Source of the DNA: Nocardioidaceae bacterium
GTDB lineage: Bacteria; Actinomycetota; Actinomycetes; Propionibacteriales; Nocardioidaceae
Assembly: GCA_029268205.1 (NCBI GenBank)
Contig: JAJUGK010000006.1
Coordinates: 1 to 39,830 of the forward strand
Direction of reading: 5' to 3'
DNA: 39,830 nucleotides
Shown: piece by piece, positions 9,748 through 32,091 of the stretch
How the letters are laid out: the number at the start of each line of letters is the position of its first letter
Position numbering within the stretch: position 1 is the first letter of the stretch
The notes under the pieces: model-generated
Told to the model about the DNA's origin: nothing
Database searches by the model: none
The model's input: the letters and a program-made list of their open reading frames with translations, nothing else
Program-made: the position numbers and the translations under genes

Positions 9748-10998
9748 TCACTTGCCGCCGAGCAGCGTGCCGAGCAGGTCGCCGAGGCTCTCGCCGAGCT
9801 CCTGCAACGGCTTCTCGGTGGGCGTGGGCGACGGGGAGGCGCCACCCTTGTCGCCCTCGGGCGCCTTGGTGGAACCACCGTCCCCCTTCGGCGCGGCCGG
9901 CTTCGTGCCGGTGTTCTGGCCGCGGGGGTTGAGCAGGTCGACGACGGTGCCGAGCAGGCCCTTGGGGACCTCGTCGGTCGTCCCGGGCTGCGGCGCGGCG
10001 GGCGCGTCCCCGCCGGCGGCCGGCGGCTCGGCCTGCTGGCCGCCCTCGTCGCCGGGACGGGCCGGTCGGGTCGGCGACGCGGGTGCCGAGGGGAGGGTGG
10101 GGATCTCGATCTCGACCTCGGGACGCACCGGGTGGGCATTGGTGAGCTCGCCGTCGGCGTCGCCGGTGGCCTGGAGCGCCTGCTTGACCTCGTCGAGTGC
10201 CAGGAAGGTCGTCGGCAGCTCCAGCACCTCGCCGGGGCCGCACTCGCCGCACAGCGTCGCGGCCTCGGCATCGAGGTCGCGCACCCGTACGGCGAGGTCG
10301 GCGAGATCGCCGTGCAGCGCAGCGGGCACCTGGTCGGTCAGCGCGTCGAGGCTCCGCAGCGAGGTCGCCAGGAACGCGCGCACCGTCTCGACGTCGGCGA
10401 CGTCGCCGGACTCGCGGTAGGAGGCGAACAGCAGCGCGGTGCCCTCGTTGGTGTGGCCGAGGAAGTCGTCGAGCGTGGCGCGGATCCGCTCCTCGAGACC
10501 CACAGCGTCGCCGTCGGCGGCCAACCGGGCGGCCTCGGCGAGGCGGCCGGTGGCGCGGTCGAGCAACTGGTGGCCCTTGCCGTCCTCGCTGAAGGTGAGG
10601 GAGGAGCGGGCCTGCTCGATGCCGCGCTTGATCGGGTAGAGCGCCTCGCCGGGGAGGGCGTCCTGCGCAGCCGTGGCCATCGTGGCCGAGCCGCCGAGCA
10701 GGACGGCGACCGAGGCCGCGGCGACGAAGCGGCGCTCGCGGGCACCCCGGGTGCGCGGGGGCAGGCTCAGGCGGGCCGCCTGGGGCGTGAGGGTGGTCTC
10801 GGCCTCGGCCATGAGCCGTTCGCGGAGGTCGTCGACGAAGGCGGCCCGCGGAGCCGGGGCCTCCATCGACCGCAGCGCGCCGACGAGTTCGAGCAGGGGT
10901 GCGTCGGCGCGCTCGTCACCGGCCTCGCCGCGGTCGAGCGCAGCGAGGCTGTCGGCGAAGTCCTCGGCGCGCCGTCGCGCCAGGAACCGGGAGTTCAT
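9748..10998 (-). CDS. rsbN: DUF5667 membrane protein, probable anti-sigma factor of the BldN-like sigma (RsbN-like)
   Basis: 416 residues. Residues 1-90 are cytoplasmic and charged (MNSRFLARRRAEDFADSL...). One membrane segment spans about 91-111. The DUF5667 domain follows, with the signature ALPGEALYPIKRGIEQAR, then a long acidic/Pro-rich exterior tail. A short soluble N terminus before a single membrane span is the usual anti-sigma layout. RsbN, the BldN-specific anti-sigma of Streptomyces, occupies the same place immediately downstream of bldN. The binding role here is therefore by position and architecture, not by a zinc anti-sigma motif, which is absent. It has its own leader of 175 bp with a BldN-type promoter. 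It ends in KPLQELGESLGDLLGTLLGGK. Confidence 0.72.
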   Translation of the reverse strand: MNSRFLARRRAEDFADSLAALDRGEAGDERADAPLLELVGALRSMEAPAPRAAFVDDLRERLMAEAETTLTPQAARLSLPPRTRGARERRFVAAASVAVLLGGSATMATAAQDALPGEALYPIKRGIEQARSSLTFSEDGKGHQLLDRATGRLAEAARLAADGDAVGLEERIRATLDDFLGHTNEGTALLFASYRESGDVADVETVRAFLATSLRSLDALTDQVPAALHGDLADLAVRVRDLDAEAATLCGECGPGEVLELPTTFLALDEVKQALQATGDADGELTNAHPVRPEVEIEIPTLPSAPASPTRPARPGDEGGQQAEPPAAGGDAPAAPQPGTTDEVPKGLLGTVVDLLNPRGQNTGTKPAAPKGDGGSTKAPEGDKGGASPSPTPTEKPLQELGESLGDLLGTLLGGK

Positions 10999-11050: not shown

Positions 11051-11079
11051 GCAACGAGGCCCGCGCGCGGAAAGTTACG
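11051..11079 (-). promoter_or_regulatory. Predicted BldN-type ECF promoter of the rsbN-like gene
   Basis: Read on the minus strand: -35 CGTAAC, 17-bp spacer, -10 CGTTGC. This matches the layout I recall for sigma-BldN targets in Streptomyces (CGTAAC, about 16 bp, CGTTG). The predicted start lies about 45 nt upstream of the rsbN-like ATG. It would give a negative feedback loop, with sigma making its own anti-sigma. Confidence 0.6.
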
Positions 11080-11173: not shown

Positions 11174-11977
11174 TCATCGCAGGCCCTCCGGGAGCAGCTT
11201 GGCCAGGTTGCGGACGCCGCGCAGCTGCAGCTGCTTGATCGCACCGTCGGTGCGGCCGAGCACCTTGGCGGTCTCGGCGATCGACATCCCCTGGAGGAAG
11301 CGCATGATCAGGCACTCCTGCTGCTCCTTGGGCAGCTTGCCCAGGGCCTCGAGCAGCGCCTCGTTGGTGAGGGTCTGCAGGACCGCGCCCTCGGGACCCT
11401 CGGTGGTGGTGTCGAGGTCGCCCATGTCCTCGGTCGACTGCTCGAGCCGGGTGCGGCCGGCCTTGTAGTGGTCGGCGGTGAGGTTGCGGGCGATGGTCAT
11501 CAGCCAGGCGCCGAAGTCCTTGCCCTGCCAGCGGAAGGTGCTCATGCTGCGCAGCGCGCGGAAGAACGTCTCGGAGGTGAGGTCCTCGGCCAGGGCGACC
11601 GTGCCGACGCGGTAGTAGAGGAAGCGGTAGACCGCCGGGTGGTAGTGGTCGTAGAGCAGGCCGAAGGCCTCGCTGTCGCCGCCACGGGCGAGCTCGACCA
11701 GCGCGATCAGCCGCTGTCCCTCGGCCTCGTCGGCTTCGGAGGAGGCGGCCAACGCGGAGTCGTCGCCCTGGCCGCTGGGCGGCTCCATCGCCAGTTGCGA
11801 GAGCGCCATGGCCTCGACCAGTGCGGGCCGGGGGCGGTGCGGCGTACCGAAGACCGTGGTCGGGGTGCCGGTGGTGGCGAGCGCGGGGGCGAAGGGGTCG
11901 TTGCCCTCCACGGCGGCGCGCAGCGCACGGCGCAGGGTTTCGAACCCTCGCCGGAACTCCGCGGCGCGCGTGTACAT
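11174..11977 (-). CDS. bldN: BldN-like ECF RNA polymerase sigma factor with N-terminal extension
   Basis: 267 residues. Region 2 runs from about residue 90 to 160: FGLLYDHYHPAVYRFLYYRVG, AEDLTSETFFRALRSM, and the -10 recognition stretch FRWQGKDFGAWLMTIARNL. Region 4 runs from about 205 to 262: LPKEQQECLIMRFLQGMSIAETAKVLGRTDGAIKQL. The closest match I can recall is Streptomyces BldN, including the WQGKDFGAWL block and the C-terminal LAKLLPEGLR. An unstructured ~88-residue N-terminal extension precedes region 2. Pro-sigma-BldN also carries a removable extension of about that size. The ATG follows GGAGAGGGAGAGG. Its partner anti-sigma gene lies 175 bp downstream. Confidence 0.83.
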   Translation of the reverse strand: MYTRAAEFRRGFETLRRALRAAVEGNDPFAPALATTGTPTTVFGTPHRPRPALVEAMALSQLAMEPPSGQGDDSALAASSEADEAEGQRLIALVELARGGDSEAFGLLYDHYHPAVYRFLYYRVGTVALAEDLTSETFFRALRSMSTFRWQGKDFGAWLMTIARNLTADHYKAGRTRLEQSTEDMGDLDTTTEGPEGAVLQTLTNEALLEALGKLPKEQQECLIMRFLQGMSIAETAKVLGRTDGAIKQLQLRGVRNLAKLLPEGLR

Positions 11978-29117: not shown

Positions 29118-30443
29118 TCAGCCCTTGCCGCCACCGAGGAGGCCGCCGACCAGACCGTCGACGACTCCGCCCACGGTGCCGAGGAGGCCCTGCAGCAGTG
29201 CCTGGACGGCACCGAGGCCGCCGTTGAGGACCTGCTGGCCACACGCGGCGAGACCGCCGAGCAGCTGGATCTCCTGGGAGGTGAAGGTCGCCTGACAGGT
29301 CGCGATCGCCTGCTCGAGTGGGGTCAGCGTCTTCACGACGGTGTCGGCGACGTCGTCGACGGTGTCCTTGACGACCTTGCCCGGGTTGGGGACCTTCGGC
29401 GTCTTGGGTGCCTTCGGCGCATCGGGCGCGGTGCCCTTGTCGTCGTCGCCGGGGGCCGGCGTGCCGGGGCCGGGGTCGCTGCCCGGGGTCTGCGGGCCGG
29501 TCCCGTCGGTCGGGGCGCTGTTGCCGCCGCGCGGGGCGTTGGGGCCGGTCTGCTTGCGCGACTTGCGGCCCTTGGTGCCGTCGGAGACGACCGCGTCACC
29601 GGTGTTGGGCGTCAGCATCCGGGCGCTGATGGTGCCGTTGGGCACCGCGGAGTAGTCGCCGCTCTGGTAGGCGCGCATCAGCGACAGCACCAGGTCGACG
29701 TACGCCTCGGAGTGGTTGTAGCGGTAGACCGCGGCGCGCTGCCCCGGCGTGGTCGCGAGGTCCTCGGTGCCGGAGCAGAGGTAGACCGCGCTGGCCAGGG
29801 CCGCGTCGTGGATGTTCTGCGGGTCGCGCTTGCCGTCGCCGTTGGCGTCGACCCCGACGATCGCCCAGGTGGAGGGGATGAACTGCATCGGGCCCACGGC
29901 GCGGTCCCAGACCGGGTCGTTGTCGTACTGGCCGGCGTCGGTGTCGGGGATCTCGGCGGTGTTGTTGGTGCCGTCGAGCGGGATGCCGAAGATGCCGGGA
30001 CGGCTGTTGCCGTCGTCGTCGAGGATGTTGCCGCCGTAGCGACCGTGGTCGGACTCCACCCGGCCGATCGCGGCGAGCAGCTCCCAGGAGAGGTTGCAGG
30101 CGGTGTCGGCGGAGTTGATGACCTGCGCGGCGCGCTGGTAGGCGGCCAGGGCGGCGGCGGGGATGCCGTTGGGGGAGGCGTCGCGGACCATCGCGCGGGT
30201 GGCGGTCGCGGACGGGACCTCGGCGGTGACCGCGGCGGGGAGCGAGACCGACGCCGGGTCCTCGACCACCTCGGCCGGCAGCAGCGAGCCGTCGGGGAGC
30301 GAGGAGGCGGTGGGGGCCTCCCGGCCCTCGTCGGCGGTCGCGGTGCTGGTGGCCGCGATGCTGGTCGTCCAGGCCCCGGAGAGCAGCGCCAGCGGCACGA
30401 GTGCCGTCGCCTTCTGCCAGGGCTTCATCCGCTTGGTCGCCAT
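29118..30443 (-). CDS. Secreted lytic murein transglycosylase
   Basis: 441 residues. The N-terminal signal peptide has a basic stretch, the hydrophobic core ALVPLALLSGAWTTSIAA, and probable cleavage near residue 37. The transglycosylase domain (about 105-235) shows LLAAIGRVESDHGRYGG with the catalytic glutamate, AVGPMQFIPSTWAIVG, DPQNIHDAALASAVYLC and AVYRYNHSEAYVD. It cleaves peptidoglycan glycan strands. A Pro/Gly/Thr/Lys-rich linker leads to a helical C-terminal part (VVKDTVDDVADTVVKTLTPLEQAIATCQ) ending in Gly/Leu-rich GLVGGLLGGGKG. The ATG at the signal peptide was chosen. A BldN-type promoter lies about 60 nt upstream, suggesting control by the sigma factor at 11.2-12.0 kb. Confidence 0.9.
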   Translation of the reverse strand: MATKRMKPWQKATALVPLALLSGAWTTSIAATSTATADEGREAPTASSLPDGSLLPAEVVEDPASVSLPAAVTAEVPSATATRAMVRDASPNGIPAAALAAYQRAAQVINSADTACNLSWELLAAIGRVESDHGRYGGNILDDDGNSRPGIFGIPLDGTNNTAEIPDTDAGQYDNDPVWDRAVGPMQFIPSTWAIVGVDANGDGKRDPQNIHDAALASAVYLCSGTEDLATTPGQRAAVYRYNHSEAYVDLVLSLMRAYQSGDYSAVPNGTISARMLTPNTGDAVVSDGTKGRKSRKQTGPNAPRGGNSAPTDGTGPQTPGSDPGPGTPAPGDDDKGTAPDAPKAPKTPKVPNPGKVVKDTVDDVADTVVKTLTPLEQAIATCQATFTSQEIQLLGGLAACGQQVLNGGLGAVQALLQGLLGTVGGVVDGLVGGLLGGGKG

Positions 30444-30509
30444 AGTCTCTTCGTCTTCTCCCGTGTGGTCTGCCCGTCCAGCCGCTGAGTGCGCGGACGG
30501 ACAAGTGAG

Positions 30510-30537
30510 ACAACGAACACCCCACCCATCGGTTACG
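30510..30537 (-). promoter_or_regulatory. Predicted BldN-type ECF promoter of the lytic transglycosylase gene
   Basis: On the minus strand: -35 CGTAAC, 16-bp spacer, -10 CGTTGT. The layout is the same as upstream of the rsbN-like gene in this window and as I recall for Streptomyces sigma-BldN promoters. The predicted start is roughly 60 nt before the ATG. Confidence 0.6.
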
Positions 30538-30654
30538 CCGACCGGGACCTGCGCAGAACCCGAGTCGTTGCAGGGAGCAGCCCCCGTCGTCGTAGCCGAG
30601 GGCACCTGCGTTCAGTGCACTCGTGTACGCCGAGTCAGCGTAGGGCACCGGCGG

Positions 30655-30667
30655 CTGGTGTGACCAG
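30655..30667. promoter_or_regulatory. Small dyad CTGGT-GTG-ACCAG upstream of hemL
   Basis: 13-bp dyad with 5-bp arms, about 75 nt before hemL. It contains GCTGGTGTGA, the same 10-mer as one arm of the dyad before the HTH gene, but has no partner at the 17-nt spacing. Possible half-site only. Confidence 0.3.
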
Positions 30668-30738
30668 ACGCACCGAACGGGCGGGGCCCGCGACCGGGTG
30701 GCCCGGCGGGGTGGTGCGGTCGGGGACAATGAACCCCG

Positions 30739-32091
30739 ATGGCTTCCTCCGCTGCTGACCCCGCTGCCTCCGCCGAGCTGTTCGCGCGCGCCCGCGCCGT
30801 GACCCCCGGCGGGGTGAACTCGCCCGTGCGCGCCTTCTCCAACGTCGGCGGCACCCCCCGCTTCATCGAGCGCGCCGAGGGGGCCTGGCTGCACGACGCC
30901 GACGGCAACGCCTATGTCGACCTGGTCGCGTCCTGGGGCCCGATGCTGCTCGGGCACGCCCACCCGGAGGTGACCGCGGCCGTGCAGGCGGCGGTGAGCC
31001 GCGGGACGTCGTACGGCACCCCGACGCGGCCCGAGGTCGAGCTGGCCGAGGAGATCGTCGCGCGCACCCCGGTCGAGCGGGTGCGGCTGGTGTCGTCGGG
31101 CACCGAGGCGACGATGTCGGCGATCCGGCTCGCGCGCGGGTTCACCGGCCGCGACGTCGTGGTGAAGTTCGCCGGCTGCTACCACGGCCACGTCGACGCG
31201 CTGCTGGCCGCGGCCGGCTCCGGTGTCGCCACCCACGCGGTGCCGGGCAGCCCCGGCGTGCCCGAGGCCGTCGCCGCCGCCACGCTGGTGCTGCCCTACA
31301 ACGACCGGGCCGCCGTCGCGGCCGCCTTCGCCGAGCACGGCGACCGCATCGCCTGCGTCATCACCGAGGCCGCCCCCGGCAACATGGGCGTCGTGCCCCC
31401 GGCGTACGTCGACGGCGAGGGCTTCAACGCCTACCTCGCCCGCACCTGCCGCGACCACGGGGCGTTGTTCATCAGCGACGAGGTGATGACCGGCTTCCGC
31501 GCCTCCCGCCGGGGTCAGTGGGGCCTCGACGGCGCGCACGAGGGCTGGACGCCCGACCTCATGACCTTCGGCAAGGTGATGGGCGGCGGCTTCCCGGCCG
31601 CGGCGTTCGGTGGCCGGGCCGACGTGATGGCGCTGCTCTCGCCCGACGGGCCCGTCTACCAGGCCGGCACGCTCTCCGGGAACCCGGTCGCCTGCACCGC
31701 GGGGCTCACCACGCTGCGGTTGGCCACCGACGACGTCTACGCCCATCTCGACCGTACGGCGACCGTGCTCGCCGAGGCTGCGTCGCAGGCGTTCACCGCC
31801 GCCGGCGTACCCCACCTGGTCCAGCGCACCGGCACGATGTTCAGCCTCTTCCTCACCGAGGACGAGGTCGCCGAGATCGTCGACTTCGCCGGCGCGCAGG
31901 CGCAGGCCCTGCACCGGTTCCGCGCGTTCTTCCACGCCATGCTCGAGCAGGGGGTCTACCTCCCGCCGAGCGCGTACGAGGCGTGGTTCGTCTCCGCCGC
32001 CCACGACGACCGGGCGGTCGAGCACGTGCTGGCCGCCCTCCCCGCCGCGGCGCGTGCCGCGGCGGCCGCCACCCCGGGAGAGACCGCATGA
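30739..32091 (+). CDS. hemL: Glutamate-1-semialdehyde 2,1-aminomutase
   Basis: 450-residue PLP enzyme converting glutamate-1-semialdehyde to 5-aminolevulinate, the step after HemA. Landmarks are [65 protein letters not shown], the PLP lysine in [13 protein letters not shown], and [13 protein letters not shown]. The length and all motifs are normal, with an Ala-rich tail. It is separate from the rex-hem operon and heads the cytochrome c maturation cluster, sharing ATGA with the histidine phosphatase gene. The -10-like GACAAT lies 8 nt before the ATG. Confidence 0.96.

Follow-up and report, generated by a model that had tools for sequence, protein, structure and literature searches.

The predicted promoter of an exported lytic transglycosylase (LT) of the MltB/SltB type was located at a site that, judging from comparative sequence analysis, is very probably read by an ECF sigma factor of the BldN family, whose gene lies at a distance of 18.5 kb in the same window (the whole stretch of DNA analyzed, 39,830 nucleotides from a Nocardioidaceae bacterium). 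Control of this gene by BldN was considered very likely, and the promoter represents a new case of an already known promoter class. The features involved are listed in Table 1.

Table 1. Location of the predicted BldN promoters and associated features (positions in the window unless a contig or locus is named).
Feature	Location	Strand	Remarks
rsbN-position ORF, presumed anti-sigma factor	9748..10998	-	416 aa (DUF5667); directly after bldN
rsbN-position promoter CGTAAC-N17-CGTTG	11052..11079	-	54 nt upstream of the ORF
BldN-family ECF sigma factor	11174..11977	-	267 aa; best NCBIfam model TIGR02952 (BldN family), 4e-55
Exported lytic transglycosylase (SLT_2/MltB type)	29118..30443	-	441 aa; Pfam SLT_2 4e-10; hydrophobic N-terminal segment
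LT promoter, -10 box CGTTGT	30510..30515	-	16 bp after the -35 box
LT promoter, -35 box CGTAAC	30532..30537	-	Exact; identical box in all detected rsbN promoters
Intergenic region with the LT promoter	30444..30738	.	295 nt; between LT and the divergent class-III aminotransferase
Class-III aminotransferase (hemL-like), divergent neighbor	30739..32091	+	Aminotran_3 6e-77
Small RNA (L004/L323)	G000:C49:1911-2038	-	Plus 19 relatives
ABC ATPase promoter sites	L138, L163, L175, L185, L196, L201, L211, L212, L217, L223

The LT Gene and Its Upstream Region

The site reads CGTAAC-CGATGGGTGGGGTGTT-CGTTGT with a spacer of 16, and its -10 box ends 66 nt upstream of the LT ATG at 30443 on the minus strand. 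The Streptomyces sigma-BldN promoters (bldM p1 and those of rsbN, the chaplins and the rodlins) resemble it in having CGTAAC at -35, CGTTG at -10 and a spacer of 16. When compared with the S. coelicolor BldN site from bldM, reported as CGTAACN16CGTTGA (PMC2375139), the -35 box was exact, the spacing of 16 was the same and five of the six bases of the -10 box agreed, the last base being T here vs. A in S. coelicolor. The LT leader was also searched for known RNAs such as a c-di-AMP riboswitch; this reading was discarded, as no Rfam match reached the gathering score and the search otherwise gave one chance hit.

The LT protein scored above the gathering score of the Pfam SLT_2 domain (39.8 vs. 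24.3 bits), contains the segment GPMQFIPSTW and has a glutamate, E130 (in RVESDHG), that is invariant in 22 homologues and that would be catalytic by analogy with the family. The predicted model was mostly confident in the catalytic core, with a pLDDT of about 80–95 over most of residues 90–265 (64.9 for the whole protein), and its seven best PDB fold matches were Slt35 and SltB1-3, none with an E-value below 0.001; identity to solved structures was 14–17%. Taken together with the hydrophobic N-terminal segment, these features indicated an exported enzyme of the MltB/SltB type, for which a peptidoglycan-cleaving activity is predicted. It is an exported form from an actinobacterium and differs from the known MltB/SltB (Slt35) enzymes by its divergent sequence, a linker that is disordered and a hydrophobic C-terminal tail. 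This tail (29118-29360, minus strand) is rich in Gly, Leu and Val, is predicted to be helical and was present in several, not all, of the orthologues; it is a possible envelope anchor.

The BldN Locus and the Rarity of the Motif

The organization of the sigma factor locus, with a presumed anti-sigma ORF (DUF5667) in the rsbN position, resembled that of the Streptomyces sigma-BldN system, in which the sigma gene is followed by rsbN with a BldN-type promoter of its own; that of S. venezuelae rsbN is BldN-dependent (PMC4255298). The sigma factor reached 186 bits with the BldN family model, just below the curated cut-off of 206, the next model giving 102 bits; its region 2 is preceded by roughly 90 aa of N-terminal extension. 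The promoter just after the sigma gene was conserved ahead of the rsbN-position ORF in 39 of 43 BldN loci, while permuted boxes gave a mean of 0.04 and a maximum of 4. A weight matrix trained on rsbN promoters only, with the rsbN site of the window in the training set and the LT site outside it, scored the former at 24.2 bits and placed the latter second with 19.6 bits, the next best site in the window having 13.3. The spacer was 17 in 32/39 of the rsbN promoters and 16 in 14/21 of the LT promoters; the other targets likewise had mostly 16, and the longer spacer perhaps makes the rsbN feedback promoter weaker.

The pattern CGTAACN{15,18}CGTTG occurred exactly twice in the window, with 0.02 occurrences expected from dinucleotide shuffles and none of 100 shuffles reaching two. 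In the whole source assembly (2.6 Mb, 81% complete) seven matches were found vs. none for the reversed pattern. Six of them lie ahead of coding sequences, namely the rsbN-position ORF, the LT, one peptidase of the S15 type, two trypsin-like proteases (for one of which the Pfam match was sub-threshold) and one exported protein, an orthologue of a G001 alpha/beta hydrolase; the seventh site lies ahead of a small-RNA element before guaA. The first-pass annotation of this DNA had placed CGTAAC-N16-CGTTGT about 60 nt before the LT start codon and had matched both boxes to an rsbN-like promoter, with spacers of 16 and 17, and both points were borne out at 30537-30510 and 11079-11052 of the minus strand. 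Its view that two such promoters were unlikely by chance agreed with the shuffles; the LT site, which it called the second BldN-type promoter, is real, and the count fell short of the at least seven such sites in the assembly.

Conservation of the Site at LT Genes of Relatives

Orthologues were gathered from 59 relatives. The exact motif was present upstream of 21 of the 45 best LT matches in relatives with BldN (permuted boxes: mean 0.03, maximum 2), and was found 0 times on the opposite strand of the same 45 regions; four further upstream regions from BldN-bearing relatives contained one-base variants. About half of the best LT matches in BldN-bearing genomes had no exact site, and these were partly distant paralogues. 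When all 23 CGTAAC words in these upstream regions were taken irrespective of the -10 box, 21 of them proved to be followed by CGTT at a distance of precisely 16 or 17 nt. The spacer and flanks of the LT sites were only 29–34% identical across 11 genera, whereas the identity of the boxes was 1.00 by construction. Conserved boxes at an exact spacing of 16/17 within diverged flanks are the footprint expected of a two-box sigma promoter.

These data also bear on two other explanations of the site. In actinobacteria, genes for cell-wall hydrolases are under the control of MtrA, a regulator that binds repeats resembling GTNAC, and the -35 word fits such a half-site, so that GTAACC could be a response-regulator half-site of the MtrA type with an incidental CGTT downstream. 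A direct repeat was rejected, however, as tandem GTNAC was found at only one of the 23 conserved sites, against 21 with the spaced CGTT, and we regard this explanation as very improbable. A chance match in GC-rich DNA is more improbable still: reversed-control matches do occur in some relatives, but the expectation in the window (0.02), the ratio of 7:0 in its own genome and, above all, conservation across genera with diverged flanks refute it.

Outside these relatives the picture was mixed. No exact site was detected near the LT homologues of two BldN-bearing genomes of g35, outside the order and probably Streptomyces. In G134, which belongs to another family of the same class, a site was found at 1270390, 258 nt before an LT match at 1270648, so that the link between the BldN motif and the LT may predate the order. 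As a separate observation, an exact BldN-type site lies between hemB-like and hemL-like genes in family f4 (L167-L170 and L172-L174), matching the LT promoter in position and direction, with no LT ORF within 2 kb downstream; it could be a promoter orphaned by loss of the gene or the driver of a non-coding transcript.

Loss of the Motif Excess in Natural bldN-Less Genomes

Among the 59 relatives, the ratio of motif to reversed-control matches was 402:141 in genomes with BldN vs. 16:36 in those without (Fisher 8e-10). Extended to 160 Nocardioidaceae genomes, the motif to reversed-motif ratio was 1142:164 in the 138 with a BldN orthologue vs. 25:47 in the 22 without (Fisher 2.6e-23; per-genome Mann-Whitney 1.8e-12), in a contrast whose genomes are not phylogenetically independent. 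This problem of kinship is limited, since the contrast also held for losses of bldN within a genus, with and without BldN, respectively: 174:23 vs. 4:8 in g5, 502:42 vs. 2:3 in g7 and 264:38 vs. 10:18 in g19. One exception was G334, which had five motifs and no bldN found; its assembly is fragmented and bldN may have been missed for this reason. None of the five LT genes of BldN-less genomes had the motif, a weak contrast because these LTs are remote homologues.

A real ECF-type promoter whose only reader, or one of whose readers, is a different ECF sigma factor with similar specificity would be compatible with the absence of the LT site from some BldN-bearing genomes, and related ECF factors do recognize overlapping motifs. 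Nevertheless, the same motif stands ahead of rsbN, beside bldN itself, in those 39 of 43 loci, and its genome-wide excess is gone without bldN even between species of one genus. We therefore consider another ECF factor an unlikely reader, and BldN the preferred one.

Other Predicted Targets of the Motif

In 12 genomes of the family, 32 of 89 motif matches were followed within 150 nt by a ribosome-binding site and a signal-like ORF, compared with 2.0% of background positions (p = 1e-31); genes with signal peptides were thus 18 times more frequent behind the motif than behind the background. Genes that recurred behind the motif were rsbN and the LT, and besides these an ABC ATPase, proteases of the trypsin-like and subtilisin-like kinds and further exported proteins. 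The ABC ATPase had a BldN-type promoter in 10 of the 12 genomes surveyed; its resemblance to Mce/Mkl led us to read it as Mce-type, Pfam confirming only ABC_tran. The spacer of these promoters often ended in TTTACT before CGTTGGTA.

A motif that is frequent genome-wide and has no positional preference was the finding that the first-pass annotation had named as evidence against its proposal; instead, the motif was rare and placed before signal-peptide genes in the proportion given above. The genome-wide scan that it had suggested gave an excess over the reversed control that was confined to genomes carrying a BldN orthologue. Its prediction of a cell-wall remodeling enzyme in the BldN regulon is thereby supported at the level of sequence, by the conserved LT promoter and by the bldN-dependent motif excess.

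One target of the motif was non-coding: an unannotated small RNA made up of a pair of hairpins, both of which carry a CUCCCUCC-type loop; the second is terminator-like. Compensatory changes were observed in 13 of its 27 predicted pairs. A covariance model of the RNA, from which the promoter had been left out, detected exactly one copy in 20 of the 59 relatives, all of them BldN-bearing. An exact CGTAAC-N16/17-CGTT was located just upstream in 20/20, including eight that had been found by the RNA model alone; as these eight were found without the promoter and yet had it, they check the promoter assignment independently. The small RNA matched no Rfam family at its threshold, and BldN-bearing genomes from beyond the order yielded no convincing homologue. 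Identity with 6C RNA or alpha-r14 was rejected, the similarity being sub-threshold only (22 bits vs. 47 and 28 bits vs. 58.8, respectively). Its loops resemble anti-Shine-Dalgarno sequences, which would make a function as a regulator possible.

Discussion

In the mechanism that we propose, where recognition by BldN, control by RsbN, the start site, the enzyme activity and the physiological timing and purpose are all predicted, RsbN would release the sigma factor and make BldN polymerase available. The polymerase would contact the -35 box CGTAAC and the -10 bases CGTT, with transcription starting about 60 nt before the LT ATG; the LT would then be exported and cleave peptidoglycan locally. The enzyme would be one arm of an envelope and exported-protein regulon whose predicted members also include the rsbN feedback, the Mce-type ATPase, secreted serine proteases, other hydrolases and the small RNA.

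BldN has so far been known as a switch of development in Streptomyces. Its known main targets there are bldM and two groups of aerial-hypha proteins, the chaplins and the rodlins (PMC4125116, PMC4255298), whereas those predicted in Nocardioidaceae are the LT, the Mce-type ATPase, exported proteases and the small RNA. The regulon outlined here resembles the Streptomyces sigma-E cell-envelope regulon (PMC6767563) in that an ECF sigma factor controls cell-envelope genes, although here this control is predicted. Sigma-E, however, belongs to a sigma family other than that of BldN. Its -35 element is GGAAC, compared with CGTAAC at the LT site.

In a survey of 100 genomes, convincing BldN orthologues were reported only from morphologically complex actinomycetes (PMC4255298); one paper describes the Nocardioides strain that it used as mycelial and sporulating. 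The wider interest lies in a conserved set of envelope functions, predicted to form a BldN regulon, in a family where convincing BldN orthologues had gone unrecognized. It is an evenly balanced proposition that BldN of Nocardioidaceae, instead of regulating aerial hyphae, switches on a program of envelope proteins and exported hydrolases (the LT, the ATPase of an Mce-type lipid importer and secreted proteases) together with a hitherto undescribed small RNA with two anti-Shine-Dalgarno-like loops, and that this set may be nearer to the ancestral regulon than the chaplins are. The role of BldN outside Streptomyces thus becomes testable on named targets, which are the cell-wall hydrolase, the ATPase of the Mce type, the proteases that are exported and the small RNA.
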